From NCBI RefSeq assembly GCF_900100605.1, contig NZ_FNCN01000008.1:1-64000 (forward strand): a stretch of 64,000 nt of DNA, given 5' to 3'. A model generated the notes under the pieces. The model saw nothing but the letters and a program-made list of their open reading frames with translations, was not told the origin of the DNA and made no database searches. Origin of the DNA: Sinosporangium album (lineage in GTDB: Bacteria > Actinomycetota > Actinomycetes > Streptosporangiales > Streptosporangiaceae). Made by a program: the position numbers and the translations under genes. Each line of letters starts with the position of its first letter. Within the stretch, counting starts at the first letter, position 1. Shown piece after piece: positions 13,628 to 30,236 of this stretch.

Positions 13628-14590
13628 TCACTCCGCGACCGTGACATAGCGCGCTCTCCCCCACGTGCTGAGGTCGCGCCGGTGGCCGAGCTCGACCGCG
13701 ACTCCCGAGGGAGCGAGGGCGTCGGTGAGGCGGCTCATCATGGAGTCGCTCATGAAGTGATGACGCAGGTCGAGCCGTTTGAGGTGGGTGAGGGGCTGGC
13801 CGGCGAGGAGGGCTTCGGCGCCCTCATCGCCGAACGTGCCGAGGGCGAGGCTCAGACACGCCAGCCTCGCGACGAGCGGCGAGGCTGCCACCAGGGCGGC
13901 GATCTCGTCTTGCTGGTCGCTGTTCTCCACGCCGAGGTGGGTGAGGGCGGGCAGGCGCTCACCGGACAGGAGCGGGGAGAGGTCTCCGAGACTCACGGTG
14001 CACCCGTAGTTGGGCACTCCGAGCCACAGGTCGAGGCGTTCGAGACGGGGAAGGTCGCTGTCGAGGACCCCGCGGAGGACCTCTACGGGCAGCCCGCCGG
14101 TCTCGAAGCGCAACGTCCGCAGCGCTTCGTGCCGAACGGGCCGCAGGGTGAGACCGTCGCTGCCGCGCACATCGAGCCGCGTGAGCCGGGGGAATGCCTC
14201 CAGGATCGGTGTGACGTCGGTCTGCTGGATCCAGGACATCTCGTTCTCCTCGGAGGTGATGGCTCCCAGGAAGATCGAGCGGAGGGCGGGGAAGCGGTCG
14301 GCGGCCTTGATGAGAGGCTCCACGATGAGCGCGGCGCTGTCATCGCTGTCGCCGAACGCACCCACGACCAGCGCCTGGACCTCGGTGGTGTCGACGGTGT
14401 CGATGAACTCGGCGAACGACTCGGCGATGTCATCGGCTTCGTCCCACCCGGCCGACAGCGTCCATGCCGCCTCCCCCGCCGGCGGCAGCGGGTCGCTGTC
14501 GAGGCCTGCCACCGGCAGCCCGGCGTAGACCGTGTCGATCGGACCGACGTCTCCGAAGTAGAAGTCCTCGCAACAGGTCTCGTCGGCCAT
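13628..14590 (-). CDS. STM4015-family leucine-rich-repeat-like protein
   Basis: A 320-residue protein that starts MADETCCEDFYFGDVGPIDT behind AAAAGGAG. It has repeated L-x-x-L-x-L segments such as 'FPRLTRLDVRGSDGLTL', 'LPRLERLDLWLG' and 'LTHLKRLDLRHHFMSD', consistent with a leucine-rich-repeat or similar solenoid, which normally binds a partner. It matches what I know of the STM4015 family, which travels with STM4011-4014. It is the first gene of the leftward cassette, about 73 bp before the STM4013-like gene. No STM4014-type gene is present. Confidence 0.8.
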   Translation of the reverse strand: MADETCCEDFYFGDVGPIDTVYAGLPVAGLDSDPLPPAGEAAWTLSAGWDEADDIAESFAEFIDTVDTTEVQALVVGAFGDSDDSAALIVEPLIKAADRFPALRSIFLGAITSEENEMSWIQQTDVTPILEAFPRLTRLDVRGSDGLTLRPVRHEALRTLRFETGGLPVEVLRGVLDSDLPRLERLDLWLGVPNYGCTVSLGDLSPLLSGERLPALTHLGVENSDQQDEIAALVAASPLVARLACLSLALGTFGDEGAEALLAGQPLTHLKRLDLRHHFMSDSMMSRLTDALAPSGVAVELGHRRDLSTWGRARYVTVAE

Positions 14591-14766
14591 CACGCACTCC
14601 TTTTCCACCTGGTTCCATCTGGCACCATCTGGCGCAGATCGGGCACCGCCCAGCGACGCGGGGCGCCCACCGGAGGTATGCCGGTGGCGCCGCAGCGACG
14701 GCATCAGTGATACCAGCCACCACCGACAGAACCGTCTTCACCGCATGGCCGCGACCGGGGAGCAGG

Positions 14767-15324
14767 CTAGTCCGAGTAGAAGAGCACCACGAACTCGACC
14801 GACGTCGCCGGTCCTTCCGTCCAATAGCCGCGGCCGATGTCGGCGGCGTTCTTGAACATCGGGTGGCGGCTCTGCAAGGTGCGGATGGCCTCGTGCGCGC
14901 CCGCGATGGACGGCCCCTTGTCCGAGTCCGGCCCGGCGCCGAGGGCGAGGACGAACCCCACCTCGCGCCGTTCGAGCTCGGGCTTGGCCTTCGCCAGCCT
15001 GGCCAGCTCACGCGTGACACCGGACAGGAGTCTCCTGGCCGCGGGCGTGTCGGCGCCGGAGCGCAGGGCGAGCGGCGACACCCGCACGGTGAAGGTGTAC
15101 GGCTTGCGCTCGACGACCCTCGGCCCCGCCTTCGGGGTGGGCTCCGCGGACGGCGCGGGCGGCGGCGCCACCGCGGGCTCTGCCCCGGTGTCGCCCGCGG
15201 GGAGGCCGCCGAGGGCGGCGAGGAACAGCACGAGGAGCAGGTCGACGAACAGCCACCCGGCGAGCATGGGCATGCGCATGCGGTCGGCGCGTCCCGCCCG
15301 CCCGGCGCGGGCCCTGGTGGCCAC
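14767..15324 (-). CDS. Single-pass membrane protein with a buried Asp (MotB/ExbD/ZorB-like topology)
   Basis: A 185-residue protein. A basic N-terminus is followed by one membrane helix at residues 20-42 ('LAGWLFVDLLLVLFLAAL') with an Asp at 28, then a Pro-rich linker and a soluble domain ending 'SVEFVVLFYSD'. An Asp inside the single N-terminal helix is the signature of MotB, ExbD, TolR and Zorya ZorB, where it carries protons; the soluble domain could be OmpA-like but I cannot confirm that. It starts at GTG 15324, overlapping the preceding gene's stop region. It is the last gene of the GTPase-associated operon. Confidence 0.65.
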   Translation of the reverse strand: MATRARAGRAGRADRMRMPMLAGWLFVDLLLVLFLAALGGLPAGDTGAEPAVAPPPAPSAEPTPKAGPRVVERKPYTFTVRVSPLALRSGADTPAARRLLSGVTRELARLAKAKPELERREVGFVLALGAGPDSDKGPSIAGAHEAIRTLQSRHPMFKNAADIGRGYWTEGPATSVEFVVLFYSD

Positions 15325-15327
15325 GGG

Positions 15328-16587
15328 TCACACTCCGCCGGGGCGGTAGCCGTACCCGTCGACCTGTTCGAGGGCGTCGCGCATCTGGTGGACGAGCACG
15401 CCGAGGCTTTCCATCGACTGGGAGGTCCAGCCGTGGAGTGTCCGGGTGAGGTCGGTCACCTCGCGCGTCATGATCTGCTGTTCGTTGGCGGCGCTTTCGC
15501 CGGCTTTGGCGGTGGCTCCGAGTTGGGTGACGAGGGCGGCGAGGCCGCCGTGGAGGCGTTTGCCTTCGGCGGCGATGTCGCGTTGCAGGGCTTCGAGGCG
15601 TTGCAGTACTTCCGTGGGGGTGTTGAGGGCTTCGCCGAGTCTGCGCAGGTCGGCGGCGGCGGCGCCGACGGCGTTGAGCGATCCGGCGAGGGCGGACGCG
15701 GCGGTGGCCATGCGCTGGGCCTGTTCGCCTTGGAGTGCGGCCGCGATCTGGCTGCCGGTTCCGCGGAGGGTGTCGTTCATGGTGTCGATGCTGTGCCGGA
15801 GGGTGCGGCTGAATTCGGCGAGGGAGCGTTCGCTGACAGGTGTGCCGCCGATGCCCTTGCGGGCGATGACGACCGTCGCGTAGGCGAGGTCGCGCGCGAC
15901 CTGTTCTCGGAGGCGGATGCGTGAGGCGAGGCCGTCGAGGAGGTGGAGGACGAACGTCAACATGATGATCGCCAGGACGAGCAGGGCGACCGCCATGGCG
16001 GTCTGGGCGAGGGTCCAGACTCCGCTGAATCCCCGCTGCCAGGCGTACAGAAACGCCTGTTTCCCGTCGGTCGCGCCGTAGGCGTCCAGCGCCTGGTGCA
16101 GTTGCCACCAGGCGAGAACGATGGGCGAGAAGATGAGGATGTCGCGGAGGATCTCCATCCATCTGGCGAGGGCGGCCGGGGCCGCGGCCTCCGGCACGAG
16201 CACGTCGGGCGGGTAGGCGGTGACCAGATCGACGCCGCCGAGGTTCGCGCCGGATTTGATCTCGCCGGCCAGTTCGCGTAGGGCCCGCCCGGGCGGGGGC
16301 CGACGCGGCGCGGCCGGTGGCGCGGGTACGGCGGGAGCCGCCGCCGCGCCTCGGCCCGGTCCCGGGCCGGCCGCTCCATAGCGTGCGGCACCGGGGCGTG
16401 CCGCGGGCGGCGCCACAGCGGGGGCCGCCCCGTAAACGGGCGTCGTGGGAGGGGCCGCGCCGAAGGGCGTCGGCAGTGGCGGTGCGGTCGGCGGCGGCGG
16501 CCGTCTGCGGCCGTCGATCCGGTCGGCGACCCGTTCGAGCCGGGTCGCCAGTTCCGCGAGAATGGCCGCCGTCAACGGGGTGCTCAC
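15328..16587 (-). CDS. Membrane protein with long coiled-coil tail (possible MotA/ZorA-like partner)
   Basis: A 419-residue protein from GTG 16587, preceded by AAGGAGG. Residues 29-100 are Pro/Ala-rich, and hydrophobic helices lie at about 147-162 and 195-217. The remaining 200 residues are helical with methyl-accepting-protein-like heptads ('LRHSIDTMNDTLRGTGSQI', 'ALQRDIAAEGKRL'). Two membrane helices with a long cytoplasmic coiled coil, next to a MotB/ZorB-like gene, suggest a motor- or sensor-like membrane unit. Direct similarity to ZorA was not demonstrable by eye. Confidence 0.6.
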   Translation of the reverse strand: MSTPLTAAILAELATRLERVADRIDGRRRPPPPTAPPLPTPFGAAPPTTPVYGAAPAVAPPAARPGAARYGAAGPGPGRGAAAAPAVPAPPAAPRRPPPGRALRELAGEIKSGANLGGVDLVTAYPPDVLVPEAAAPAALARWMEILRDILIFSPIVLAWWQLHQALDAYGATDGKQAFLYAWQRGFSGVWTLAQTAMAVALLVLAIIMLTFVLHLLDGLASRIRLREQVARDLAYATVVIARKGIGGTPVSERSLAEFSRTLRHSIDTMNDTLRGTGSQIAAALQGEQAQRMATAASALAGSLNAVGAAAADLRRLGEALNTPTEVLQRLEALQRDIAAEGKRLHGGLAALVTQLGATAKAGESAANEQQIMTREVTDLTRTLHGWTSQSMESLGVLVHQMRDALEQVDGYGYRPGGV

Positions 16588-16603
16588 GGGATGTCCGTCC
16601 TCC

Positions 16604-18712
16604 TTAAGGCACACCGAACAGCACGACCAGGACAAAGATCGCCACCACGAGCACGACGGCGAGGACCGCCACTCCCCCGAGCAGGAGGCGGGTCAGCGTG
16701 TCGCCGTCCCACCACCATCTCTGGAACGGGGTGGCTTGGAGTGGGAGCCGCGGGTCGCTGTCGGACCGTACCGCCGTGATGCTCACGGCCGGTGCGGCGG
16801 CCGCGGTGCGCACCGGGTGGTGCCGCAGGCCGTGTTCGCCGAACCAGCGGGTTCCCGCGTGTTCCATGACGATGGCGCCGAGCTTCGGGTCCCCGACCTG
16901 CTGGACCAGCGCGTGCAGCAGCACGGGCGCGCCGGACGTCTTCTGGAGGATGCCGCGGATCACCCACTCGTCGGCGAGGGCGTCGCCGTACGAGACCGAG
17001 AACATCCACTGGAGGATGCTCGACTGCTTGGCGAGGTCGTCGGGCTCGATGCGTTGGACGGTCGGGACGAGGTAGTCGCATTCCGCCATCACCGCGATGG
17101 ACCGCTCGCGTTCGCGCGGCGTGTCGCGCCGGACGGAGGCCCGTTCGAGCAGCAGCCAGGCCAGGTCCTGCGAGGTGTCCGCGTACCGGGCCGCGGCGGC
17201 CAGCAGTTCGGAGGTCGGCGCCGCGCTGAGCAGGCCTTTCACTTCGACCGCGTCGTAGCGCAGGCCGAGGGTCACGGCCCGTTCCACGTAGTGGAGGCGG
17301 ACGGCGTGCATGGCCTTCGCGGAGTGCGTGCGCAGTTCGGCGGCGATGACCGCGAGCGGCGGCGGGTTGCGGGTGAGCACTCCGCGCAGGTGCGCGTCGT
17401 CGCCGCTCGTGGTCATGAAGCGGCGTACGGCTGCCGCCACGGCCCTGTCGGCCAGCTCGGCGTATTCACCTCCGGCCGAGGCCAGCCCGTCGATCACCTC
17501 GGCCAGGGCGGCGGAGTCGAGTTCGTCCCAGTTCTCCCCGATATGCGCGGACCAGACGTGCAGCGCGCCGACCGTCTCGTGGAAGGGCGCGGGCTCGGTG
17601 GAGGTGCGCACCAGCAGGCGCACCAGGCTGGTCCAGGAGGGGGCCCAGGCGTGCGCGGTGGCGCCGGTGAGGGGGCCGCGGGGGCGCAGGTCCCGCACGA
17701 GGTCGGGGCCGCCGTGGCGGTAGGCGACGGCGAGCGCGGCGGCGAGGTCGAGCGCCTCCGCGGGGACCTCGCCCGCGGTGCCCGCACTACCCACGCTGAC
17801 CGTACTACCCACGCTGACCGTACTACCCGTGCTGCCGGCACTGCCCGTGCCGCCCGTGCCGAGGAACACGCGGGTGCCGTTCGCGGCTTGGTCGGGACGG
17901 GGCCGTTCGGTGACGGCGACGAGGCGGGGCCGGTGGCGGCTGCGTGGTTCGACCGCTTCGCGGGTGGCGAACGTCCATGGCCGGTCGGGGTCGTCGCCGA
18001 GCACGTCGACCACGGCGCAGACCAGCTCGGCGGCGTCGCCGTCGGGGACGACCAGCGTGAAGCCGCCCTCGGGTTCGGCGAGGATCGGCGCCAGCAGGTC
18101 GGCGAGGTGCTGCGTCGGCCGCGACCGCGCCCCTTCCCGCAATGCGGCGAGGCCGGCCAGCGCGGCGAGCCGCAGCGTGTCGTACGGCACCGCCTCCAGC
18201 ACGTCGGTTACGCCGCGCGCCGTCGGCCGGGTCTGTTCGGCGGGTCCGGCGCCGCCGTGTCCGCCGCCGCCGTGTCCGCCGGCCTCGGCCGCGGTGTCGG
18301 AGTCGGGGCCGGAGTCGCGGCCTGGGTGGGCGCCGGAATCGGGGCCGGTATCGAGGTCGTCGCCGATCCAGCCGGACCAGGAGGCGAGGCCGAGGGCCAG
18401 TTCGGCGGTGAGCAGCGCGGCGGGTCCGACGAGGGCGTGGGCGACGGTGGAGCCGCGCCGCCCGCGGGGGTCGCGCACGGACAGCTTGCGGACCACCGCG
18501 GCCTCGTGGTCGAAGGTGAGCAGGAGCAGCGCCGTACCGCCCGCGCGCTGGTCGGCCTCGGCCGCCGCCCATTCGGGCGACAGGAGCCGCTGCTCCCATT
18601 TGGTCACGTCGCCGATCGGTAGGGACGCGGAGACCGGCCCCAGCCCGCGGTGTCCGGTCAGCGTAGGGTCATCCCAAGAGAACAGAATCTGGTCAATCGC
18701 CGTCTCGGTCAC
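16604..18712 (-). CDS. GTPase-associated protein 1 (GAP1)-like protein with C-terminal membrane anchor
   Basis: A 702-residue protein. The N-terminal 140 residues ('DQILFSWDDPTLTGHRGLGP' then ASLPI, and 'LTFDHEAAVVRKLSVRDPRG') fit the GAP1-N2 type domain found beside small conflict-system GTPases. A helical middle region follows, with a low-complexity GST/SVGS linker near residue 300 and a membrane helix in the last 25 residues before VLFGVP. It is probably an adaptor linking the GTPase to the membrane. It overlaps or abuts its neighbours (1 bp from the GTPase gene), so it is co-translated. The domain call is from memory of family patterns. Confidence 0.6.
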   Translation of the reverse strand: MTETAIDQILFSWDDPTLTGHRGLGPVSASLPIGDVTKWEQRLLSPEWAAAEADQRAGGTALLLLTFDHEAAVVRKLSVRDPRGRRGSTVAHALVGPAALLTAELALGLASWSGWIGDDLDTGPDSGAHPGRDSGPDSDTAAEAGGHGGGGHGGAGPAEQTRPTARGVTDVLEAVPYDTLRLAALAGLAALREGARSRPTQHLADLLAPILAEPEGGFTLVVPDGDAAELVCAVVDVLGDDPDRPWTFATREAVEPRSRHRPRLVAVTERPRPDQAANGTRVFLGTGGTGSAGSTGSTVSVGSTVSVGSAGTAGEVPAEALDLAAALAVAYRHGGPDLVRDLRPRGPLTGATAHAWAPSWTSLVRLLVRTSTEPAPFHETVGALHVWSAHIGENWDELDSAALAEVIDGLASAGGEYAELADRAVAAAVRRFMTTSGDDAHLRGVLTRNPPPLAVIAAELRTHSAKAMHAVRLHYVERAVTLGLRYDAVEVKGLLSAAPTSELLAAAARYADTSQDLAWLLLERASVRRDTPRERERSIAVMAECDYLVPTVQRIEPDDLAKQSSILQWMFSVSYGDALADEWVIRGILQKTSGAPVLLHALVQQVGDPKLGAIVMEHAGTRWFGEHGLRHHPVRTAAAAPAVSITAVRSDSDPRLPLQATPFQRWWWDGDTLTRLLLGGVAVLAVVLVVAIFVLVVLFGVP
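17786..17857. repeat. Degenerate 18-bp tandem repeat inside the GAP1-like gene
   Basis: About four units of ACTACCCACGCTGACCGT, the first two identical. They encode the Gly/Ser/Thr/Val linker (GSTVSVGSTVSVGS) of the GAP1-like protein and probably vary in copy number. Confidence 0.6.
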
Positions 18713-18713
18713 G

Positions 18714-19784
18714 TCAGCACGACTCCTCCCGCCCGAGCATCCCCGGGTCGACCACGCCCTTCATGGCGAGCAGGGAGAGCAGCGGTTTCAGCACACGTCG
18801 GGGCTGAAAGCCACGCTCGGGGAAATAGTCGCCTTCGGCGCTGACCCCTGTCGCCGAGGCGAAGTGCAGCGTCGAGTCGGCGAACCGGGAGGCGGCCGAG
18901 GCCCACCGCGACGCGCCGTGTGTGGCGAGGAAGGTGTAGGCGTCGGCGCTTTCCCGCTCGACCGTGCCGAGGTGGAAGTCCTCGCCGTCGCGCGACATCC
19001 ACCGGTCGACCGCGGCGAAGCCTCGGTGGCGGAGCAGGTCGGCCTTGTTCACGACGAAGGCGGCCGGCAGCGGGAGCAGCGGCCGTTTCTCGGGGTTGAG
19101 CGTGTGTTCCAGGGTGCGGAGGGCGTTGCCGAACGTGGGGTCGCCCGCGGCGCGCTCTTTCTCGGGGGCGCCGAGCCCTCCGACGCGCATCGGGTCGACG
19201 ATGAAGATGAGCGCGTTGACCGCGCCGAGGAAGCGTACGGCTTCGCCGCTGCGCTCCTGCACCTCGCCGGCGACGTCGAAGAAGGTCACGGCGTAGCGCG
19301 CGGGGCGCGGGCGGTCGACGTTGGTGACCTTGAGGGTGTCGACGTAGCCGATGGCGTCGTGGGAGGTGCGGGTGAGCTGCTCGCGTCTGGCGAGGAACGG
19401 TTCGACCACGGTCTTCATGTAGTCGCGGTGCAGGAAGGGGTGGAACTCCTCGACGCGCAGTCCGACCTCGGGCAGGTGGGCGGTCCGTGCGAATTCGCCG
19501 ATCATCGCCGCGAGCAGGTGGGTTTTGCCGGCGACGGCCGTACCGATCATGCCGATGACGACGCGGCCCTCGTATTCGCCGTATTCGTGGGGAAGGTGGT
19601 GGGGTGGTCTCTCCCCTGGGCACTCGCGGTAGGCGAAGGTCAGGCGGTGTCTCCACCGCGTGTCGGACTCGCCGTCTTCACGGACCAGCTCGCGGGCCGC
19701 GCCGGTGTTCTCGTCGAGGCTGACGAGGCGGGCGCGCTTCCATGGGAACTCGTGGAGGCAGATGGGGCACCGGACCGTGGTCAC
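18714..19784 (-). CDS. P-loop GTPase of a GTPase-associated system
   Basis: A 356-residue GTPase. The Walker A/G1 is G81-TAVAGKT88, G3 is D170-VAGE ('VTFFDVAGEVQE') and G4 is N246-KAD249 ('VVNKADLL'). The N-terminus has Cys pairs (CPICL at 6-10; CPGE at 55) that could form a zinc ribbon. The G-domain resembles the double-GTPase-like proteins of bacterial conflict systems, which act as nucleotide-dependent switches. The start is an ATG or alternative at 19784 that overlaps the kinase-like gene's stop. The GAP1-like gene follows after 1 bp. Confidence 0.8.
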   Translation of the reverse strand: MTTVRCPICLHEFPWKRARLVSLDENTGAARELVREDGESDTRWRHRLTFAYRECPGERPPHHLPHEYGEYEGRVVIGMIGTAVAGKTHLLAAMIGEFARTAHLPEVGLRVEEFHPFLHRDYMKTVVEPFLARREQLTRTSHDAIGYVDTLKVTNVDRPRPARYAVTFFDVAGEVQERSGEAVRFLGAVNALIFIVDPMRVGGLGAPEKERAAGDPTFGNALRTLEHTLNPEKRPLLPLPAAFVVNKADLLRHRGFAAVDRWMSRDGEDFHLGTVERESADAYTFLATHGASRWASAASRFADSTLHFASATGVSAEGDYFPERGFQPRRVLKPLLSLLAMKGVVDPGMLGREESC

Positions 19785-20920
19785 CGCACCACCCCGATCA
19801 GCGTGACCGCGCCGACGGCGACGAGCACCAGGGCCAGTCCGGCGGTGAGGACGACCGCGATGGCCGTCGCGGGCGCCCGCCGCGCGGCGCGTAACGCCGA
19901 GGCGAGCGATCCGCGCGGCTCGCGGCCCGAGACGGCCCGGCTCCCCGCGGACCAGAGCCCCGCCCCCGGCGTGTCGGCGGCGCGGCGGCGCGCGGTCTCG
20001 GCGCGGAAGGCGTGCTGGGCCGCACGCATCGCCTCGAACTCGGCGCGGACCGCGCGCTCGCCGTCGAGCCGCCGCCAGAGTACGGCCGGAGCCTGCGCGT
20101 CGGCGCCCTCTGCCCTGCCGACTCCCCTGCCGGTTCCGGCGTCGAGGCGGCGCAGGAGTTGCCTGGCGTAGGGCCGGTCGGCGGCGCGGGGGGCGCGGGT
20201 GCCTTCCAGCAGCCGCTGGAAGGAGAAGTCGAGCCGCGCGAGGACGTCGGCGACCTCGGCGGAGGTGGTGGTCGGTTCCCGGGAGGCGAGCCTGGCGATG
20301 AGTACGGCCGCGGCGTGGATGTCGTCGCGGCTGTCGGCGGCGCCGACGCCCTCAAGCTGCTCGGGGGAATCCCACGGCACCTCGCCGAGGGGGCGGCCCC
20401 GGGGGCGTCCCGCCTCGGCCGCGTGGCCGAAGTCGGCGATCATCAGCGGGCCGCCTTCCCAGCGCAGGTGCTCGGGCCGGAGCCGGCGGTGGACGACGCG
20501 GGCGTGGTCGAGCCAGGCGAGCCCGGTCAGGAGGTCTTTGAGCAGCGCGGTCAGCTCGTCGCTGCGGAGTTCGGGGTTGTCGGCGACGGGGGCGAGGTCG
20601 TCGCGCCGGTAGGTCACGAGCACCCGGCGGGGGCCGGCCAGCGGCGAGTAGCCGATGAGGCGGCTGAGCTGGACGGGGTATTCGCCTTCCGGGATGCGGC
20701 CGAGGAGCCGCTCTCCTATCTCGACCTCGCGTCTGAGCAGGGCGGCGCCGCCGTCGCCGACGGCCTCTTTGAGGGCGACCGGGCCTTCGACGGCGTGCCT
20801 GCCGTAGCGCACCGAGTGGTTGCCGCGCAGCACGGGCGGCCCCGCGAAGTCCACATGGAACGGTTGCGGCCCCCTACCCGGGACGAAGGGCACGTAGAGC
20901 ATCAAAGGATCGGTAGCCAC
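19781..20920 (-). CDS. Protein kinase-like membrane protein, catalytic loop altered
   Basis: A 379-residue Ser/Thr kinase-fold protein with a C-terminal membrane helix (about 350-375). The ATP-anchoring lysine (VALK, K51) and the metal-binding DFG (D163) are present. The catalytic-loop HRD-x-K-x-x-N is replaced by H144-R-R-L-R-P-E-H, which lacks the catalytic Asp, Lys and Asn. It is therefore probably a pseudokinase that binds nucleotide or partners rather than phosphorylating. It opens the leftward operon, diverging from the CHAT protease gene across 239 bp. Confidence 0.75.
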   Translation of the reverse strand: MATDPLMLYVPFVPGRGPQPFHVDFAGPPVLRGNHSVRYGRHAVEGPVALKEAVGDGGAALLRREVEIGERLLGRIPEGEYPVQLSRLIGYSPLAGPRRVLVTYRRDDLAPVADNPELRSDELTALLKDLLTGLAWLDHARVVHRRLRPEHLRWEGGPLMIADFGHAAEAGRPRGRPLGEVPWDSPEQLEGVGAADSRDDIHAAAVLIARLASREPTTTSAEVADVLARLDFSFQRLLEGTRAPRAADRPYARQLLRRLDAGTGRGVGRAEGADAQAPAVLWRRLDGERAVRAEFEAMRAAQHAFRAETARRRAADTPGAGLWSAGSRAVSGREPRGSLASALRAARRAPATAIAVVLTAGLALVLVAVGAVTLIGVVR

Positions 20921-21159
20921 AGATCACCCCGCCTCTACCCCGAACTCACAAGAAACTCAAGCGGCTCGGAAAAGCCCGCCGTGTTCATTATCCGACGAAG
21001 GAGACCTAGTCTTAGGACACAAGCCAGAATACTCTCTACTGACCGTTACACCTGTGAGAGTAATCGGATGATCACCGGAAATCAAAATCGGAGATCAAGC
21101 GCCAGATTCACCCATATGCACTGATGCACGGTGTCCCACCAGCCCCAGGCGGTTGCCCG
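20921..21159. promoter_or_regulatory. Shared AT-richer spacer between the two large divergent operons
   Basis: This is the only clearly AT-richer stretch in the 20-kb locus. It contains CCTA-GTCT-TAGG at 21005-21016 and several near-palindromic tracts up to 21100, so it probably holds both divergent promoters and their operators. AGGCGG, seven bases before ATG 21160, may act as the ribosome binding site. Confidence 0.5.
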
Positions 21160-22041
21160 ATGATCACATATGACGAAGCCCGGAGGAACGGTGTCATCAC
21201 CGCCCTGGCCCAGGTTTTCGATTCCGAGGCCAAGAGTTACGCGCTTCTGGAGGACATGGGCGTCGACCGCACCCGACTTCCCCACTTCGGCTCCCTCGCC
21301 GCGGAGTTCTTCTGGCGGCAGGTGGTGCGGGAACTCGCCCACGGCATGGCCGAGCCCGGCCTGACCGAGCTGGTCGACACCGCATACCGCCTCTATCCGG
21401 GCAATGAGGTCTTCCGGCGCTACTCCGGCGCGGCCCCCTCCCCCGCGGCGCCCCCGGCTGCGCCCGGGGCGACCCGGCCGCTGCGGGTGCTCTGCCTGCA
21501 GTCCGCCCCCGGCAACACGGCCGAGCTGCGGCTCGACCGCGAATACCGGGAGATGCTGCGCGTGGCCGAGACCCGCACCGCCCGCGGGCTTGAGGTGGTC
21601 GTCTCCCCCGCGACCCGCGCCGACGACATCCAGCGCCGCCTGCTGTCGGGCTCGTGGGACGTGGTGCACTTCTCCGGCCACGGCACAAGCGATGGGCGGC
21701 TGCTGTTCGAGGACCGCTGGGGGGACGACTACCCGGTGTCGGTCGAGGTCCTCGCCGAGGTCTTCGAGGCCGCCGCGGGCACGCTGGAGTGCGTGGTGCT
21801 GGCGAGCTGCTACAGCGGGGCCTACGCCGCCGAGCTGCTGCGTTGCGCCCGTGCCGTCGCGGGGTCGAGCACGCCGATCTCCGACGACTGCGCGATCGCG
21901 TTCGTCGAGGGGTTCTACGAGGCACTGGCGGAGGGCCGCGACGCGCGGAAGGCGTTCGACAACGGCAAGAGCCGTATGAGGCTGCTCGGGTGCGGTTCCG
22001 GCGACATGCACTTCGAGGCGAGGGAGGGCCATGAGCGGTGA
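21160..22041 (+). CDS. EAD1-CHAT caspase-like protease
   Basis: A 293-residue protein. Residues 8-90 form an effector-associated EAD1-type domain ('ITALAQVFDSEAKSYALLED ... YPGNEVFRR'), a death-like adaptor that pairs with matching domains. A Pro/Ala linker leads to a CHAT protease domain with catalytic His174 in 'HFSGHGTSDG' and Cys217 in 'LASCYSGAYAAEL'. CHAT proteases of conflict systems cleave target proteins once triggered. It opens the rightward operon. An in-frame ATG at 21124 adds only 12 residues of poor quality. The same EAD1 type recurs in the E2 fusion encoded three genes downstream. Confidence 0.88.
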   Translation: MITYDEARRNGVITALAQVFDSEAKSYALLEDMGVDRTRLPHFGSLAAEFFWRQVVRELAHGMAEPGLTELVDTAYRLYPGNEVFRRYSGAAPSPAAPPAAPGATRPLRVLCLQSAPGNTAELRLDREYREMLRVAETRTARGLEVVVSPATRADDIQRRLLSGSWDVVHFSGHGTSDGRLLFEDRWGDDYPVSVEVLAEVFEAAAGTLECVVLASCYSGAYAAELLRCARAVAGSSTPISDDCAIAFVEGFYEALAEGRDARKAFDNGKSRMRLLGCGSGDMHFEAREGHER

Positions 22042-22732
22042 CCGCGCCCGCCTCCCCGGAGGTGTGCCTTCGGGGGCCGAGGCCGCCGGCCCGCCAGCGA
22101 GGAGCACGGTGAAGAGCACGGCGGAGAGCACGGCGGAGAGCACGGCGGAGAGCCTGGTGAGGAGCTTCGAGGCGGGGCTGCGGCTCGGGCGCGACCCGGC
22201 CAACCTCCTGCCCGAGGGGCGGGCCCGCACCACGTCGGGGTCGCCGTGGTGGCCGAGCGAGCGCTGCCCCGTATGCCGCCACAGCTATCGCATCGGCGAC
22301 GACGTGTGGGTGTCCATCGAGAACGGCCGTCTGGTCGTCAGACATGACATGCCCACGTTGAGCTGCCAGTTCCCGGAAAACGCCACGCCTGTGGAGGGGA
22401 CTCCGGTTCTTGAGGCTTTCTACGCCGCACTCGACGCGGCGAATCCGCCTCCAAGAAACTTTGTTGTAGAGCGTTTAAACCCGAGAGATATGCTCTTCGA
22501 TGCTCGAAGGCCCTACCGTGTCCAATGCGTAGGTTGTCCGCGTACCTTCCGCCCATATGAAGTCGTGGCATTCTGCCCCTGCAATCCGGAAGAGCCGAAA
22601 TGCAGATTACGGGCACACCGCGATCCCGGTGCGGGCCTGACCTGTTTCGACGCGCTCATCAGCGACAAACGGCGGCGGCACTGCATGCTGAGTTTCAAGA
22701 AACTCTCATCTCAGCGGTCCGAGGGCTGGTGA
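22031..22732 (+). CDS. Zinc-ribbon protein of the ubiquitin-like operon, with a TTA codon
   Basis: A 233-residue protein overlapping the CHAT gene by 11 bp. The N-terminus carries four S-T-x-E repeats from a 12-bp tandem repeat. Two zinc-binding-like groups follow: CPVCRH near residue 78, and 'CVGCPRTF ... FCPCNPEEPKC' at about 165-195. It probably serves as an adaptor or reader for the tagging system; no catalytic motif is visible. From about 22430 to 22620 the composition drops in GC, with AGA, GTT, GTA and an in-frame TTA codon at 22475-22477, unusual for this genome. A lower-confidence alternative is a recombined gene. Confidence 0.65.
   Translation: MSGDRARLPGGVPSGAEAAGPPARSTVKSTAESTAESTAESLVRSFEAGLRLGRDPANLLPEGRARTTSGSPWWPSERCPVCRHSYRIGDDVWVSIENGRLVVRHDMPTLSCQFPENATPVEGTPVLEAFYAALDAANPPPRNFVVERLNPRDMLFDARRPYRVQCVGCPRTFRPYEVVAFCPCNPEEPKCRLRAHRDPGAGLTCFDALISDKRRRHCMLSFKKLSSQRSEGW
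22099..22152. repeat. 12-bp tandem repeat in the zinc-ribbon gene
   Basis: GAGCACGGCGGA is repeated three times after a variant first copy. It encodes the STAE-type repeats at the protein's N-terminus. Confidence 0.7.
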
Positions 22733-23733
22733 TGCGGCGCTACACCCGCCACAGCGGCATTCCCGGCTGGAACCAGGAACGCCTGGCCTCCTCGTCCGCG
22801 GTCGTCATCGGGATGGGTGCGCTCGGCAGCGAGGTCGCCCGCATGCTCGCCCAGAGCGGGGTGGGCCACCTCGTCCTCTGCGACGGCGACACGGTGAGCG
22901 AGTCCAATCTCAACCGCGGCTCGCTGTACGGCGCCACCGACGTGGGCATGGCCAAGGTCGATGCGGCGGCGGCCCACCTGTCCGCGATCAACCCCGGTGT
23001 CCACGTCGACCCCCGGCCCACCTGGTCGTCGTGCGGGGTGGGGCTGAGCGAACTGCGCGACGCCGACGCCGTGCTGAGCTGCCTGGACAGCCGCGCCGCG
23101 CGGGTGGAGCTGGCGCGGCGCTGCAACCTGGCGGGGGCGGCCATGCTGGACGGCGGCACCTGGCCGTGGGGCGGCGAGGTGCGGCTCTACACGCCCGACG
23201 GGGCGTGCTACGGCTGCGCCCTCGACGACGCGGGGCGGGCGGAGTCCGACGAGGCCGTGCGGTGCGGGGCGCCGCAGAACGGCGCCGCCTCCGCGGCGTC
23301 GGCGCCGGTGTCCGCGCTCATCGGCTCGCTCATGTCGGCGACGGCGATCCGGATGCTCCTCGACCTTCCGGTGCGTCCCGGTGTGGTCAGCGTGGACGCG
23401 ACGCTCCTGTCGAGCCACCGGGTGCGGGCGGAGCGCGACCCGGCCTGCCCGCTGCACCTCACGATCCCCGCCAAGGCCGTGGAGCGGTCGCCGTACAGCA
23501 GCGACGCGCTCGTCAGGCTGCTGCTCGCCCGGCTTGAGCCCGGCGAGACGGTGCTCACCTGGGCCGACTTCCCCTCACCCGACGACGCCGCGGCCAGGCT
23601 GATCCAGTTGCGCGACGCCGCGCCGGACCAGCGGCTGCGGGACCTCGGGGTCGCTCCCGGGGAGATCCTCACGGTGGTGCGTGAGGGCCGTCCCGACCGC
23701 TACATCGAACTCGCCCGAGGAGGCCGCCGATGA
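22732..23733 (+). CDS. E1-like ThiF-family adenylyltransferase
   Basis: A 333-residue E1-type enzyme that would adenylate the C-terminus of a ubiquitin-like protein. It has the nucleotide-binding G27-x-G-x-x-G32, the 'CDGDTVSESNLNRG' motif (D51, D53, N59, N61, R62) and one Cys pair C159-Y-G-C162, with a lone C239 where a second pair would be expected. C178 ('VRCGAPQNG') is a candidate thioester Cys. Its ATG overlaps the zinc-ribbon stop (TGATG), and its own end overlaps the E2 fusion start, so the set is translationally coupled. The C-terminal 80 residues are an extra domain. Confidence 0.88.
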   Translation: MRRYTRHSGIPGWNQERLASSSAVVIGMGALGSEVARMLAQSGVGHLVLCDGDTVSESNLNRGSLYGATDVGMAKVDAAAAHLSAINPGVHVDPRPTWSSCGVGLSELRDADAVLSCLDSRAARVELARRCNLAGAAMLDGGTWPWGGEVRLYTPDGACYGCALDDAGRAESDEAVRCGAPQNGAASAASAPVSALIGSLMSATAIRMLLDLPVRPGVVSVDATLLSSHRVRAERDPACPLHLTIPAKAVERSPYSSDALVRLLLARLEPGETVLTWADFPSPDDAAARLIQLRDAAPDQRLRDLGVAPGEILTVVREGRPDRYIELARGGRR

Positions 23734-25292
23734 AGCCGGAATACCTCACCGCGCTCTCCGTGGTGTTCGACAACCCCGCCAAGGCCACGGCGCTTCTGGA
23801 GGACATGAACTACCCGCGCGACCGGGTGCCGCCCTGGGACACGACGTCGCGCGCGTGGTGGTCGCGGGTCGTGCGGGAGATCGACGACGGCATCACCGAG
23901 GGCGGTTTCGCCGTGCTGTTCTCCTATGCGAGCCGGCAGTATCCGGGCAACAGGCCGTTCCGTGAGGCGATGCTCGACTATCCGCAGAGCCCGGCGCCCG
24001 CGGCTGAGGCCGTACCGGGGCCGGGGTTCCCCCCTCCGCCTCCCCTGGGCTCCTCGGGGGCGGCGGCGCAGCAGCCTTCCCCTCCCCCCAAGGCCGACCT
24101 CGGCGGGCCCCAGGTCGCCCCGCACTCCGACGAGTGGCCCACGATCACGCTCATCGGCAGCGACCGCAGCGACGACTTCATCCGCGAGGTCCGCAGACAC
24201 GACCCCTCGGCGCAGCTCTGCTACGCCACGCAGGGGCAGGCGTGTGTCGCGCTCTCCTTTACCGGGGTTCGTGCCCAGGAGGTCGCCGACCAGGTCGGCG
24301 CGGAGGTGAACCGGTGGAACGAGGACACCGAGGGGGACCGGGGGAACGAGCGCGCGGACGTGGAGTACGCGGTCTACCCGTTCCGCCCCTACGCGCTGCG
24401 CGAGATCACGGTCTACGGGCCCGACGGGGAGGGCTTCCTGCTCCACGGCGTGCCGTCGACGACGCCGGTGCGCGACATCCCGTGGGCGGTGCTGCAGCGC
24501 TACGCCGACGACGCGGTGCGCGACCGGCGGGGGCGCTTCCTGCGCACCACGGTGGACCTGATCGAGCCCGACGGGACCGCGCGGCGGCTCAACCCCGACG
24601 AGACCCTGCACGCCGCCAGGGTGCCGGACGGGGCGCACCTGCGGATCCACCCCGAGGCGACGGCCGGGGCGCACCCGTCGTCCTACCGGGAGATGGTGCT
24701 GGGGGCGCAGCGGCAGATCGAACGCTACGCCGAGCGGAACAAGGACTGGTTCCGCATCGTCGAGATCCGGCACCGGGAGCTGCCCACCAGGTATCTCATC
24801 GAGTTCGACGCGGCGGGTTTCGCCCCGCCGGAAAGGATCGACGACACTCCCGCGGAGCTGCTGAAGCCGCACCCGGTCGACGTGCACCGCGTGTCCATCG
24901 AGCTGCTGCGGGAGTTCCCGGTGCGCCCGCCGTGGGTGGTGTGGCGGACACCGATCTTCCACCCCAACATCCTGCGCCTGCCGCCCGGCGACGCGCGGGC
25001 CGGAGCGGTGTGCCTCGGGGCGCTCATGGACGCCTACCGGCCCGACCTGGACCTCGGGGACCTGTGCCAGATGCTCGTCAACATCGCCGCCTACCGGAAT
25101 TACGAGGTGCTGCGGCCGGACGAGCTGGGCGGCGAAGGCTACCTCGACAAGGTGGCCGCGCAGTGGGCCCGCTCGCCCGAGGGGCAGCGGCAGATCGAGG
25201 AGCGCGGCGGCACTCCGCGCACCGACCTGACCGGAAGCGATCAACCCGATATCCGCCGCCGACCCTTGGAGATCAGTACATGGGACACGTGA
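23730..25292 (+). CDS. EAD1 - ubiquitin-like - E2 (UBC) fusion protein
   Basis: A 520-residue, three-part protein. Residues 1-85 are an EAD1 domain ('LSVVFDNPAKATALLEDMNY ... YPGNRPFREAM') closely like that of the CHAT protease. A Pro-rich linker and a segment with a small alpha/beta look follow to about 220. Residues 224-310 look like a ubiquitin-like beta-grasp ('EITVYGPDGEGFLLHGV', 'DETLHAARVPDGAHLRIHPE'). Residues 320-470 are an E2 fold with HPN (411-413) and catalytic Cys428 in 'GAVCLGALMDAY'. It should accept a tag from the E1-like enzyme, and the shared EAD1 should recruit the CHAT protease. The domain boundaries are read by eye. Confidence 0.8.
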   Translation: MKPEYLTALSVVFDNPAKATALLEDMNYPRDRVPPWDTTSRAWWSRVVREIDDGITEGGFAVLFSYASRQYPGNRPFREAMLDYPQSPAPAAEAVPGPGFPPPPPLGSSGAAAQQPSPPPKADLGGPQVAPHSDEWPTITLIGSDRSDDFIREVRRHDPSAQLCYATQGQACVALSFTGVRAQEVADQVGAEVNRWNEDTEGDRGNERADVEYAVYPFRPYALREITVYGPDGEGFLLHGVPSTTPVRDIPWAVLQRYADDAVRDRRGRFLRTTVDLIEPDGTARRLNPDETLHAARVPDGAHLRIHPEATAGAHPSSYREMVLGAQRQIERYAERNKDWFRIVEIRHRELPTRYLIEFDAAGFAPPERIDDTPAELLKPHPVDVHRVSIELLREFPVRPPWVVWRTPIFHPNILRLPPGDARAGAVCLGALMDAYRPDLDLGDLCQMLVNIAAYRNYEVLRPDELGGEGYLDKVAAQWARSPEGQRQIEERGGTPRTDLTGSDQPDIRRRPLEISTWDT

Positions 25293-25296
25293 ACCA

Positions 25297-26409
25297 ATGA
25301 TCGCGGAGATCGAGCTGTACAAGGGGAGGCGCCGGACCTACTACGGACGCCTCGTGCTGCAGCAGGTGCTGTTCGAAGCGCTCAACGACGCCCATCCGGG
25401 GCTTCTGCCCCGGGCCGAGGACGTGGAGAAATCGGAGCGGTCGGAGCGCCCGAGATTCGTCCTGCATTTCCACGACGCCGAGGACACCGGCCGCATCCCC
25501 GGTGAACCCGAGGTGACCAACGTCCGGGCGGACTTCGGCCACCTGGACCTGCGCGTGCTGGTGGGAGGCGCGGTCGTGCACGAGCGGCACTACTCGGTGA
25601 GCGAGCTACTGGGAGACGTCCTGGCGAAGCTGCTTTCGCGCATCGACCCGGACGAACGGGTGTGGGGGTTCGCGATCCGGCATCCCGCCCTCGGCGCGAT
25701 GGCCCGCTCGCGCCGGGCCCCGGAGGTGGAGGGCGCGGTCGACATCGACCTGAAGGAGACGAGGAACCTGCCGTTCACGGTCCAGCGGATCGAGGAGCGC
25801 CAGGACGCCGTCGATCCGGCGAGCCTGGGCATCTCCCCCGGCAGGCTCGGCCCGATCAACGTGATCATGTCGGAGGAGGTCTGCGATCTGCTGGCCGAAG
25901 GGCTGCCACTGTCGACGTCGATCGAAGAGGGCGGGTTCCTGCTGGGCAGGCTGAGCCCCGCCGCGGGCGCGCCCGACCGGCTCATGGTGGAGGTCACGCA
26001 CGTCACGCCCGCCGAGCGGTCCGGCGCCTCGGCCACGCATTTCACCTTCACCGGCGACTCGTTCACCGCGGTCAACAGGCTGATCGTGGAGCGCGGCCAG
26101 GGCGAGGACCTGGTGGGGTGGTACCACACGCACCTGTTCTCCGCGGCCGTCGCGATGAGCACCGGAACGGGACTGTCGGGCACCGACGTGGACCTGCATT
26201 TCGCGACCTTCAGGCGGCCCGGACAGGTGGCGGGCCTCATCAACCTTCACGAAGACACCCGGCTGGTCAGGTTCTACGGGCGGGTAGGCGACCGGATGGC
26301 GGAATGCGGGGTGTGGAGCCGCGATGAGCGCGGTCGATACAGCATGCGACGTGATGCTCTGGGCCGTCACCGAGGCGGCGACCCGCCGCGACGCGCCGGG
26401 ACACGGTGA
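25297..26409 (+). CDS. JAB/JAMM-type metallo-deubiquitinase-like peptidase
   Basis: A 370-residue protein. The N-terminal ~160 residues are an unassigned domain. The C-terminal half is a JAB domain with Glu210/211 ('SIEEGGFLLGRL'), H277-T-H279 ('VGWYHTHLF') and S294-x2-D297 ('LSGTDVDLHF'). The gap between HxH and SxxD is 14 residues rather than the usual seven, so the active-site loop is enlarged. It should cut ubiquitin-like tags or precursors using zinc. It starts 4 bp after the E2 fusion. Its last 28 residues overlap the next gene and look poorly constrained. Confidence 0.83.
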   Translation: MIAEIELYKGRRRTYYGRLVLQQVLFEALNDAHPGLLPRAEDVEKSERSERPRFVLHFHDAEDTGRIPGEPEVTNVRADFGHLDLRVLVGGAVVHERHYSVSELLGDVLAKLLSRIDPDERVWGFAIRHPALGAMARSRRAPEVEGAVDIDLKETRNLPFTVQRIEERQDAVDPASLGISPGRLGPINVIMSEEVCDLLAEGLPLSTSIEEGGFLLGRLSPAAGAPDRLMVEVTHVTPAERSGASATHFTFTGDSFTAVNRLIVERGQGEDLVGWYHTHLFSAAVAMSTGTGLSGTDVDLHFATFRRPGQVAGLINLHEDTRLVRFYGRVGDRMAECGVWSRDERGRYSMRRDALGRHRGGDPPRRAGTR

Positions 26410-27226
26410 CCTGTCCGGGGCCGCCGACCTGGCCGACCCGCCCGAGGAGCTACGCGTGTCGCTCGGCCGGCTGGCCGCCGTCACCGCGGCGCGGCTGCGC
26501 CTCGGCCCGCCTCCGCTGGGCGACGGGCCGGGCGGCGCGGTCGGGCCCGGCGCGGCGCTGCTGGCCGCGGCCGTCGGCGCGCGCCACCACTTGGCGGCCT
26601 CTGTCGACGTGCTGAACGCGGCCCGGCTGCCGACGGCCGCCGACGGCGCGGCGGAGGCCGGTGGCTGGGAGCTGGCCGTACGGCACGGCGTCGCCGAGGC
26701 GGCTCTCGCCGTACCCGACCTGGACCCCGACCTCGCGGACCTGCTGCGCGACTGCTCTCCGCTGACGGCCCTGCTGGACCATCCGACGCCCGAGGGGGAA
26801 CGGGAGGCGGAGCTGCTGCTCACCCGCAGGCTGCTGCACCATCCGGACGGGTGGCGGCTGGCGGCGCTGGCGTTGGCCGAGCCGCCCGCCGGGGCCGCTC
26901 AGGCCGTGTGGCGGTCGGGCCTGCTGTCGCGGTGCCGCCGGGTCAACCTGGCGTTCGTGCTGGACGTCTATGAGATGGGACTGTCGCTGTTCGCCGCCGA
27001 GCACCGGCGGCGGCTGCGGGCCGCGCGGCGGCTTCTGTCCGGCGCAGGCCGGGGTCGCGCGGTGGACCCCGACGCCGTAGCGGGGACGGCGCTGTGGTGG
27101 CGGGCCCTGGCGGAGATCGGGAAGACCAACCCCCGCGCGATCGGGCGCAGGCGGTGGATCACCGCCGAGCACGCCCAGGGGATCGAGCTGTACCGCGCAC
27201 TTCGACGCTGGGAGGCGGCCTCGTGA
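26324..27226 (+). CDS. Helical protein of unknown function in the tagging operon
   Basis: A 300-residue Ala/Leu/Arg-rich, probably all-helical protein that overlaps the JAMM gene by 86 bp and is coupled to the AAA gene by a GTGA overlap. The C-terminal part 'RAIGRRRWITAEHAQGIELY' is the best-structured sequence. GGAG seven bases before ATG 26324 supports the start despite the long overlap. I recognise no motif. Its fixed place between the JAMM peptidase and the AAA ATPase suggests a scaffold or substrate adaptor joining the two modules. Confidence 0.6.
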   Translation: MSAVDTACDVMLWAVTEAATRRDAPGHGDLSGAADLADPPEELRVSLGRLAAVTAARLRLGPPPLGDGPGGAVGPGAALLAAAVGARHHLAASVDVLNAARLPTAADGAAEAGGWELAVRHGVAEAALAVPDLDPDLADLLRDCSPLTALLDHPTPEGEREAELLLTRRLLHHPDGWRLAALALAEPPAGAAQAVWRSGLLSRCRRVNLAFVLDVYEMGLSLFAAEHRRRLRAARRLLSGAGRGRAVDPDAVAGTALWWRALAEIGKTNPRAIGRRRWITAEHAQGIELYRALRRWEAAS

Positions 27227-29073
27227 TTCCACTCCGCGTGGTCTATACGGCCGAACGGAACCGCCGGGACCTGGCCGCGAGCTCGCGTGAGACCATGCTC
27301 GCGGCGGCGCTGCACGTGTCGGGATGCGTCCTGCTGGAGCCGCTGCGCTCCGGCTGGCGCCAGTTGCCGATGTCGGCGTTCCGCCTGACGTTCATTCCGG
27401 TCGACCAGGTGGGCCCCGGCACTCCGCTGTATGCCGCCGACGGGTCTCCGGCGTCGGTGGGGGCCGGGTTCGGGCAGGTGGGCGACCTGACCGAGCCGGA
27501 CCCGTCGCAGCGGCCGGTCGGCATCACCGACGAGGCGGCCACCCGCCTGGCCTACGAGCCGGAGATCGCCGAGGTGGCCTCGCTGCTGCGCGCGGACCTG
27601 TCGGTGCTGGTGGTGTCGGACAAGATCGTCGTGCCGTACCTCGCCGAGCACATCGTGCGGCGCGCGGGCCGCGAGGCGCTGATCGTGGACGCCTCCGGCG
27701 ATGACGACGACGAGGAGGACGGCGGGCCGCTGTCGGGCCTGCCGGCGGCCGGTTCGACGCGGCAGCGGCAGATGGCGCGGCTGCGCACACTCATCCGGGC
27801 CGCCAAGCCCGGACATGTCATCGTCATTCCGCATCTGGACCTGCTGGCGGGCGGAGCGGATTCGGGGCTGTCCGCGGAGGCCCGCGAGGTGACCGAGCTG
27901 CTGTACGCCTCGGCCGACCGGGTGGTGCTGGCGTTCGCCGACCTGTCGCTGCGGGTGCCCGAGGTGCTGGCGGCCCGGTTGAGCCGGAGGCTGGCGCTGG
28001 AGGGCAGCCCGCGCACGGTGTGCTTCCCCGGCGGCGGCGAGGCCCCGCTGGAGCGGGCGCTGGTCACCGAACAGGAGGCCATGCGGTTCGCCGGGCTGGA
28101 GTCCGCCGACTTCTACAAGCACGTGGCGGGCCTGAACCCGGTACGGCTGCGCCAGGCGATGCGCTACGCGATGCAGGTCCACGAGGGCAACCCGAACCCG
28201 CGCGTGGAGGACCTGCGGGACACGATCCGCTCGTTCAAGACCCACCTGGTCACCAACTTCGAGATCCCCAAGATCACGTTCGCCGACATCGGCGGCTACG
28301 ACCAGGTGAAGGCGGAGCTGCAGGAGGCGCTGCACGTGATGGAGGCGTCGCAGTTCCTGCCCGAGGCCGACCGGCAGCTCAAGGGCGAGATCGTGCCGCG
28401 GGGGTTCATCTTCCACGGCCCGGCGGGCACCGGGAAGACCCTGCTCGCCAAGGCCATCGCCAACGAGATGAATGGCACGATCCAGGTCGTGTCCGGCCCC
28501 GAGGTCACCAGCAAGTGGGTGGGGGAAGGCGAGGGCAAGGTGCGCGAACTGTTCGCCGAGGCCCGCAGGAACGCCCCCTCGGTGATCGTGTTCGACGAGT
28601 TCGACTCCATCGCCGCCCGCAGGTCGAGCTGGGAGGACGGCGGAAGCCGGGCCGCCAACGCGATGGTCGCGCAGATCCTCACCGAGATGGACGGCTTCCG
28701 GCCCGACGTGCCGATGCTCGTCATCGGCACGACCAACCGCATCGACATCATCGACCCGGCGCTGCTGCGCCCCAGCCGGTTCCGCAGCTTCCACATCGAC
28801 CTGCCCGACGTCGAGGGGCGGCGGGCCATCGTCCACGTGCATGCCCGCCGCTACCACATCGAGGTGGGCGAACTCCTCGAACCCATTGCGAAAGCGACAG
28901 AAGGCTGGAACGGCGACCAGATCGCCTCCATCTTCCGCGGGGTGTACATCGCCAAGTGGCTCCGCCGCGAAAGCCTGGACGCCCCCGAAGAGCTGGCCAC
29001 GCGCATCGGCGCGATCATCGGCGGCATCCAGAAGGCTGCCCAGGACATGCGCGTCAGCCAGGAAGGACAGTAA
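27223..29073 (+). CDS. FtsH/Cdc48-like AAA+ ATPase
   Basis: A 616-residue AAA+ protein. The first ~350 residues are system-specific, including an acidic 'DDDDEEDGG' stretch. The ATPase core follows with Walker A GPAGTGKT near 399-406, the pore-type 'KWVGEGEGKVRELF', Walker B VIVFDEFD near 453-460, and the arginine-finger region 'PALLRPSRF'. There is no FtsH protease HEXXH, so it would unfold or remodel rather than degrade. It starts at GTG 27223 overlapping the previous stop, and its TAA overlaps the MoxR ATG. It corresponds to the 'FtsH' member of ternary conflict systems. Confidence 0.87.
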   Translation: MIPLRVVYTAERNRRDLAASSRETMLAAALHVSGCVLLEPLRSGWRQLPMSAFRLTFIPVDQVGPGTPLYAADGSPASVGAGFGQVGDLTEPDPSQRPVGITDEAATRLAYEPEIAEVASLLRADLSVLVVSDKIVVPYLAEHIVRRAGREALIVDASGDDDDEEDGGPLSGLPAAGSTRQRQMARLRTLIRAAKPGHVIVIPHLDLLAGGADSGLSAEAREVTELLYASADRVVLAFADLSLRVPEVLAARLSRRLALEGSPRTVCFPGGGEAPLERALVTEQEAMRFAGLESADFYKHVAGLNPVRLRQAMRYAMQVHEGNPNPRVEDLRDTIRSFKTHLVTNFEIPKITFADIGGYDQVKAELQEALHVMEASQFLPEADRQLKGEIVPRGFIFHGPAGTGKTLLAKAIANEMNGTIQVVSGPEVTSKWVGEGEGKVRELFAEARRNAPSVIVFDEFDSIAARRSSWEDGGSRAANAMVAQILTEMDGFRPDVPMLVIGTTNRIDIIDPALLRPSRFRSFHIDLPDVEGRRAIVHVHARRYHIEVGELLEPIAKATEGWNGDQIASIFRGVYIAKWLRRESLDAPEELATRIGAIIGGIQKAAQDMRVSQEGQ

Positions 29074-30236
29074 TGGCCTGGGAACAGCACACGCTGCAGA
29101 TCATCCGGCGGCTGCGGACGGTCCACCAGGAGATCAGCGCGGACTACGTCGAGCGCGACCTGGTCGTCGAACTCCTGCAGCTCGCCGCGGTCACCCGCGA
29201 GCACCTGCTGCTGCTGGGCCCGCCCGGCACGGCCAAGACCGACCTCGTGGAGCGGTTCTGCCTCGGCCTCGGGGCGCGGCGGTACCGCTACCTGCTGACC
29301 CGCTTCACCGAGCCGTCGGAGATCTTCGGGCCGCTCGACTTCGCGAGATTCCAGCAGGGCGAGTACCACATCCAGACCTCCGGCATGCTGCCGGAAGCCG
29401 AGATCGCCTTCCTCGACGAGGTGTTCCAGGGCAGCAGCGCGATCCTCAACACGCTGCTCACGCTGCTCAACGAGCGCCGCTTCCACAACGGCCCCCACAC
29501 CCAGCACGCGCCCCTGATCAGCGTGTTCGGCGCGAGCGCCGAACTGCCGGAGGACCCCGCCCTGAGCGCCTTCGCCGACCGCTTCCTGATCCGCGCCAGA
29601 GTCGAGCCCGTCGGCGAGAGCCACCTGCCCGACCTGCTGGAGGCGGGCTGGGGCCGGGAGCGCGACCGGCTGTCCTCCCGGAACGGCGCCGCCCCCACCC
29701 CGCTGGTCGACACCGCCGAACTGGCCCAGCTGACCGGCAGGCTCGGCCGCGTGGACCTCGACGTCATCCGGCCGCTGTACGAGGAGCTGATCCGCGAGCT
29801 GCGCGGCCAGGGGGTGGCGCTGTCGGACCGCCGCCTGGTGCGGGGGCTCAAACTGGTCGCCGGAGCGGCCCTGCTGAGCGAAAGGGACGTGGCGGCGGCC
29901 GAGGACCTGTGGCCGATCGCCCACGCGTGGGCCGACCCCGCCGACGCCGACCTGGTCGCCGACATCGTGGCGGAACGCTCCTCCTCCGGGGAGGCGGCCC
30001 GCGAGCGGAGCAGGCCGACCAGCGAGATCGTGGCCGAGGCGCGTTTCGAGGCCGAACGGGTCAGCGCGCCCTCCTACGACGTGACCCGGGGGTCGATCGA
30101 CGCCACGCTGCGGACCTTGAGCAGGCTCCGGCGCGAACTGCTCACCGGCCCCCAGGACCCCCCGCGCCGGGCAGGGACCGACGAGGTCGACCAGTTGATC
30201 GACTACGTGATGAGCCACTACCAGAACATCAGCTAG
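29073..30236 (+). CDS. MoxR/RavA-type AAA+ ATPase
   Basis: A 387-residue MoxR-family ATPase. Walker A is GPPGTAKT (49-56), followed by 'LLTRFTEPSEIFGPLDF' and Walker B-type 'AEIAFLDEVFQGSSAILNTL', which are MoxR hallmarks. MoxR proteins act as chaperone-like ATPases with von Willebrand factor A partners. A vWA-like domain is present at the end of this operon. The TAATG overlap with the upstream AAA gene shows tight coupling. The last 100 residues are helical with no assigned domain. Confidence 0.9.
   Translation: MAWEQHTLQIIRRLRTVHQEISADYVERDLVVELLQLAAVTREHLLLLGPPGTAKTDLVERFCLGLGARRYRYLLTRFTEPSEIFGPLDFARFQQGEYHIQTSGMLPEAEIAFLDEVFQGSSAILNTLLTLLNERRFHNGPHTQHAPLISVFGASAELPEDPALSAFADRFLIRARVEPVGESHLPDLLEAGWGRERDRLSSRNGAAPTPLVDTAELAQLTGRLGRVDLDVIRPLYEELIRELRGQGVALSDRRLVRGLKLVAGAALLSERDVAAAEDLWPIAHAWADPADADLVADIVAERSSSGEAARERSRPTSEIVAEARFEAERVSAPSYDVTRGSIDATLRTLSRLRRELLTGPQDPPRRAGTDEVDQLIDYVMSHYQNIS

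Follow-up and report, generated by a model that had tools for sequence, protein, structure and literature searches.

A candidate stator-like membrane pair in a GTPase/GAP1-type operon of Sinosporangium album

On the minus strand of a 64,000-nucleotide stretch of Sinosporangium album DNA (contig NZ_FNCN01000008.1, positions 1 to 64,000; hereafter the window), five genes at 14767-20920 encode a kinase-like protein, a GTPase, a putative GTPase partner and two membrane proteins. The original prediction took them for a GTPase-gated membrane effector with the layout of ZorA/ZorB or MotA/MotB. The reading favored here, to which we give a probability of about 0.5, takes the products of the last two genes for a stator-like pair belonging to a new family, which acts as an envelope sensor or transducer and switches the cytoplasmic module encoded alongside.

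The operon and its divergent neighbor

The genes of the operon and those beside it are as follows.

19781..20920, minus strand: P0005, pseudokinase with a C-terminal transmembrane (TM) helix, HRD degraded to HRR (Pfam Pkinase, E 9.4e-9, and alignment)
18714..19784, minus strand: P0004, zinc-ribbon GTPase of the DO-GTPase2 kind, with P-loop, DVAGE and NKxD (Pfam DO-GTPase2, 22.7 bits, below the curated cut-off of 27)
16604..18712, minus strand: P0003, divergent GAP1-like protein with a C-terminal TM helix (motif alignment to GAP1-N2)
15328..16587, minus strand: P0002, A subunit, with a Pro-rich N-terminus, a two-TM hairpin and a long cytoplasmic helical tail
14767..15324, minus strand: P0001, B subunit, with a TM helix at 18-39 holding Asp28, a Pro-rich linker and a predicted OmpA-like outer domain at 76-184
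13628..14704, minus strand: LRR-like protein (weak LRR matches), 62 nt downstream of B
21124..22041, plus strand: EAD1-CHAT protease, with which the divergent operon begins (Pfam EAD1 2.7e-17, CHAT 8.6e-14)
22600..26409, plus strand: E1 (ThiF), EAD1-fvmYukD-E2 and fvmJAB (Pfam)
27094..36731, plus strand: FtsH-like AAA, MoxR, fvmX7 and beta-propeller (AAA 3.2e-42, bpMoxR 7.3e-85, fvmX7 3.3e-106, WD40)

The junctions from P0005 through P0004, P0003 and P0002 to P0001 measure -4, 1, 16 and 3 nt by their coordinates, so that the five genes form a tightly coupled operon, as had been proposed, and their order recurs in other genera. The LRR-like gene probably shares the transcript of B; in a sister species it directly follows the GAP1-like gene. 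The proposed pseudokinase is borne out by the HRR of P0005, although the Streptomyces relatives of this kinase retain HRD, and the prefix thus fits only some members. The GTPase likewise stands, as P0004 carries a CPIC zinc ribbon, a GTAVAGKT P-loop, FFDVAGE and NKAD, shows the zinc ribbon and Walker B Glu of DO-GTPase systems, and all 16 of its homologues match DO-GTPase2 at E up to 0.01 (best E 1.3e-10). A first scan of genome contigs with the GTPase as query gave no match. P0003 itself has no Pfam match, and a single homologue out of 16 (L104, the same locus as L012) matches GAP1-N2, weakly, at E 9e-4 and below the cut-off. The motif D..GR.G...HALVG of P0003 aligns to the GAP1-N2 signature, the HH probability against GAP1-N2 is 9% (controls, about 1% or less), and the gene adjoins that of the GTPase in the position that GAP1 takes in DO-GTPase/GAP1 systems. 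On position, sub-threshold Pfam match and aligned motif, P0003 is therefore termed GAP1-like, an assignment weaker than that of the GTPase.

This part of the operon resembles the DO-GTPase/GAP1-N2 systems of Kaur et al. (2020; PMC7159879), in which a zinc-ribbon DO-GTPase2 is followed by a GAP1-like gene, with a TM kinase, in actinobacteria. It differs in that tubulin, HSP70 and PP2C partners are absent from this operon and a stator-like pair is found instead; the FNIII repeat of such systems is likewise absent from all five proteins by Pfam. That paper contains no occurrence of MotA or ExbB and makes no mention of a stator-like pair.

The divergent operon, which starts about 200 bases away, is a complete FtsH ternary conflict system in the complex form set out by Kaur et al. 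(2020; PMC7159879), its component set being present with the vWA domain not matched separately. A similar divergent arrangement lies beside the homologous operons L011 and L012. In FtsH-system loci of another family, found via fvmJAB, the five-gene operon is absent by profile, so the association of the two is not an obligate one, and the FtsH ternary passages of PMC7159879 describe no accompanying DO-GTPase operon or membrane pair. Beside the system, at 10484-13554 on the minus strand, a sulfatase-like protein and two radical-SAM proteins are encoded; a peptide-modifying part is known to accompany FtsH ternary systems, and these genes may represent it.

The two membrane subunits and known stators

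The single-pass protein with an Asp inside its membrane helix was correctly recognized in P0001, whose one TM helix holds D28, and the motor-like reading holds well for this subunit. When a profile of 40 B relatives is run against 177,635 PDB sequences, two ExbD sequences take the first and second places (E 0.010 and 0.026); their essential Asp is in register, and the matches cover about 20-40 residues and are each marginal alone. Against twelve E. coli proteins the profile gives ExbD 20 bits and TolR 10 bits, with the other ten at or below about 1 bit and no score for MotB. None of the 40 B members matches the ExbD/TolR or MotB Pfam families at E up to 1. The membrane Asp is invariant in 47 of 47 B homologues. 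The outer domain, in an AlphaFold2 model with a mean pLDDT of 80, has the order beta-alpha-beta-alpha-beta-beta and is predicted to be OmpA-like, since Foldseek places OmpA C-terminal peptidoglycan-binding domains first among its PDB matches (4rha, E 1.2e-3, probability 1.00), followed by OprF, H. pylori MotB and TagL; TM-scores below 0.5 make this a match at the level of fold and not a close one. No clearly conserved pattern of peptidoglycan-contacting Asp and Arg was seen in the B alignment.

P0002 has two TM helices and then long helices, in keeping with the membrane protein with a long tail that had been foreseen. Pro155 and Trp160 are invariant in 46 of 46 A proteins and Thr159 is found in 45. 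Both membrane helices of A show one-sided conservation (p 0.006 and <1e-4), whereas the B helix is conserved on all sides, as would be expected for a B helix enclosed by A helices. A profile search with A gave no detectable similarity to MotA, ExbB, TolQ or ZorA, the membrane hairpin matched neither PDB sequences nor E. coli MotA, ExbB or TolQ, and the monomer model (pTM 0.39) retrieved only unrelated helical bundles by Foldseek. The resemblance to ZorA/ZorB or MotA/MotB is backed for B by three independent tests (ExbD-type helix, OmpA-like outer domain, invariant Asp); for A it extends to topology, adjacency, co-inheritance and one-sided conservation, but not to a sequence or structural relationship, and A has two TMs rather than three or four. 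A could be a stator subunit in very reduced form, or else a protein of no relation to stators that came to fill their role. A PADLOC ZorA2 match of P0002 (E 0.036) and the ZorA matches of its relatives were rejected as coiled-coil noise, as in a control that model matched only coiled-coil stretches in actinobacterial genomes. Residue 159, in TM1, is Ala in P0002 and Thr in the other 45 of 45 aligned A proteins.

Among known systems, Zorya serves as the model for comparison. There, the Asp of ZorB lies against a ring of Ser/Thr residues in ZorA, ZorB contacts the wall while the ZorA tail enters the cytoplasm, effectors are interchangeable, and function needs the ZorA tail, peptidoglycan binding and ion flow (PMC11890865). 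The present pair shares an A subunit with a long cytoplasmic helical tail, a B subunit with a TM Asp and an OmpA-like domain (at fold level only), a defense context and interchangeable cytoplasmic partners. It differs in that A has two TMs against three in ZorA and has no MotA/TolQ/ExbB-type membrane domain by Pfam, PDB sequences or Foldseek, that its partners are DO-GTPase/GAP1 or vWA/PP2C/kinase, and that a PADLOC scan found no ZorC, ZorD or ZorE in the operon or among neighboring proteins. With ExbB/ExbD and TolQ/TolR it shares the B helix, which aligns with that of ExbD (and TolR), whereas the outer domain is OmpA-like and not of the ExbD/TolR type, A is unrelated in sequence and the host is actinobacterial. 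The layout of B, with short N-terminus, Asp helix, linker and OmpA-like domain, is that of MotB, but the flagellar context is absent, the B profile leaves MotB unscored and A has its two TMs. These tests place the pair outside Zorya, MotAB and ExbBD; it appears to be a new stator-like pair, for which stator-like working is moderately probable. No description of such a pair was found in the literature searched, whose coverage is incomplete.

Relatives and genomic contexts of the pair

A profile of three B proteins, run against 343 genomes of the host's family, gave 91 matches at E up to 1e-3, the weakest of which match parts of the profile only. In the 40 neighborhoods extracted, A adjoins B in 39 by profile and in the 40th by BLAST cluster, most commonly with a 4-nt overlap; in one locus (L053) the order is reversed, and in another (L068) the A frame as read stops 540 nt before B. 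Distances among A proteins follow those among B proteins (Mantel r 0.88, 0 of 5000 permutations), so the pair moves between contexts as a unit. The order of the five genes recurs in Thermocatellispora (L012) and in another genus of the family (L011). A scan of genome contigs yielded 15 named loci in Streptomyces, Actinomadura, Thermobifida, Thermocatellispora and Actinorugispora, each with A and B, and the GTPase and GAP1-like genes lie upstream of the pair in 14 of them, the T. fusca contig ending at that point; a kinase profile match lies upstream in 12 of the 14. Across 395 genomes of the host's class, the B gene is present in 16 genomes of six families.

Two contexts account for all but a few of the 40 neighborhoods. 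The GTPase/GAP1 context of the window is found in 10. In the other, A and B are followed by a vWA protein, a PP2C phosphatase (both named from sequence motifs read by eye) and a kinase, and 12 such loci also carry BrxD and BrxHI (606 and 1,028 bits in one checked case). A TerY-like kinase occurs in 20 of the 40 neighborhoods, and BrxD and BrxHI in 12 each. The vWA (DESYSM)-PP2C-kinase-BrxD-BrxHI cluster headed by the pair (L058, L062, L064, L067, L069, L076, L077 and others) is apparently a defense system that the literature searched does not describe. That the same pair stands beside two quite different defense machineries suggests that it is a sensor or motor part of a portable kind not described before.

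A decayed copy in the sister species (L009:6972-10486) has the kinase N-terminus fused to the GTPase C-terminus beside an intact GAP1-like gene, and the A and B genes are missing, the pair having been lost; that species also has a DO-GTPase system of the tubulin type (L010, on G001:C4), whose kinase, GTPase and GAP1-like genes are homologous. In six loci of the Actinomadura type (L055, L056, L070, L071, L074 and L081) a second kinase and GTPase follow the B gene.

A model for the pair, and its alternatives

Taken as a whole, these results allow a model in which B would be a subunit of the ExbD/MotB/ZorB type, its helix holding an ion-binding Asp and its OmpA-like domain reaching the cell wall, while an A oligomer would surround the B helices with its two-helix hairpins and extend a long coiled-coil tail into the cytoplasm. 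Disturbance of the wall, for example upon phage entry, may free B, whereupon ions would cross between A and B at Asp28 and the A tail, by moving, would switch the module encoded alongside, here the DO-GTPase, the GAP1-like protein and the membrane-anchored pseudokinase. This module may in turn set off the adjacent CHAT/ubiquitin-like/FtsH-MoxR machinery, which would give the locus an anti-phage role. More generally, the pair would be the input, GTPase/GAP1 or vWA/PP2C/kinase the switch, and the CHAT/ubiquitin-like/FtsH set or BrxD/BrxHI the output. The placing of the pair at the input is inferred by analogy with Zorya, from the same layout and the changing partners. Several results weigh against the model: A has two TMs and matches no known stator subunit, the ExbD matches of B are marginal and MotB does not score, residue 159 of P0002 is Ala, and the sister species has lost the pair.

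The signaling direction favored here runs opposite to that of a GTPase gating the membrane pair, and neither is proven. In the latter scenario the GTPase and GAP1-like protein sense invasion and open an A/B channel, depolarizing the cell. Every complete locus of the window's type does have the GTPase and GAP1-like genes upstream of the pair within one operon, and GAP1 systems are known to have two-TM pore-forming effectors among their partners (PMC7159879). However, 30 of the 40 relatives of the pair have no such GTPase in the extracted stretch (one of them, L063, being cut by a contig end), many GTPase-free loci carry BrxD/BrxHI, which are already likely effectors, and the cell-wall type of domain in B suits sensing better than killing. 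The original prediction of a GTPase-gated effector is accordingly not upheld in that form and now seems unlikely, since the occurrence of the pair in GTPase-free systems favors a sensor or transducer for interchangeable modules. SLATT two-TM effectors are common in GAP1-N2 systems (PMC7159879), and as A has exactly two TMs, P0002 could be a SLATT-type pore-forming effector, unrelated to stators, with P0001 as its anchor or inhibitor. Neither P0002 nor its homologues match Pfam SLATT, and such an identity would not account for the ExbD-like helix or the OmpA-like domain of B, which makes it very improbable.

A further alternative retains stator ancestry but dispenses with ion flow, so that B would hold the wall and A the cytoplasmic module in a non-conducting, wall-anchored mechanosensor or scaffold. 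This could account for an A subunit with no detectable stator sequence and for the loss, in the window protein, of a nearly invariant polar TM1 residue, but it is hard to reconcile with the invariance of a membrane Asp that a mere anchor would not need, and it too is rather doubtful. Returning to the sensor or transducer reading, its broader form is a tentative one, held at somewhat less than even odds: that the pair represents a second, independent class of defense stator in actinobacteria, with a minimal two-helix A and a B of ExbD-type helix and OmpA-type domain, from which at least two unrelated conflict systems would draw a portable, ion-driven input, one being DO-GTPase/GAP1 with FtsH ternary and the other vWA/PP2C/kinase with BrxD/BrxHI. 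If true, this would extend ion-driven stators of the 5:2 type to actinobacterial immunity, make A the smallest A subunit known to us, and provide GTPase/GAP1 and FtsH ternary systems, for which we know of no trigger, with an input.

Lastly, a third context is seen in L059, L060 and L082, where the A protein has no N-terminal DLxxAYPP motif; in L060 and L082 the A gene is preceded by that of a large protein of about 1,360 aa. The pair is also present in actinobacteria with very small genomes of 1.3-1.5 Mb (L171 and L172).
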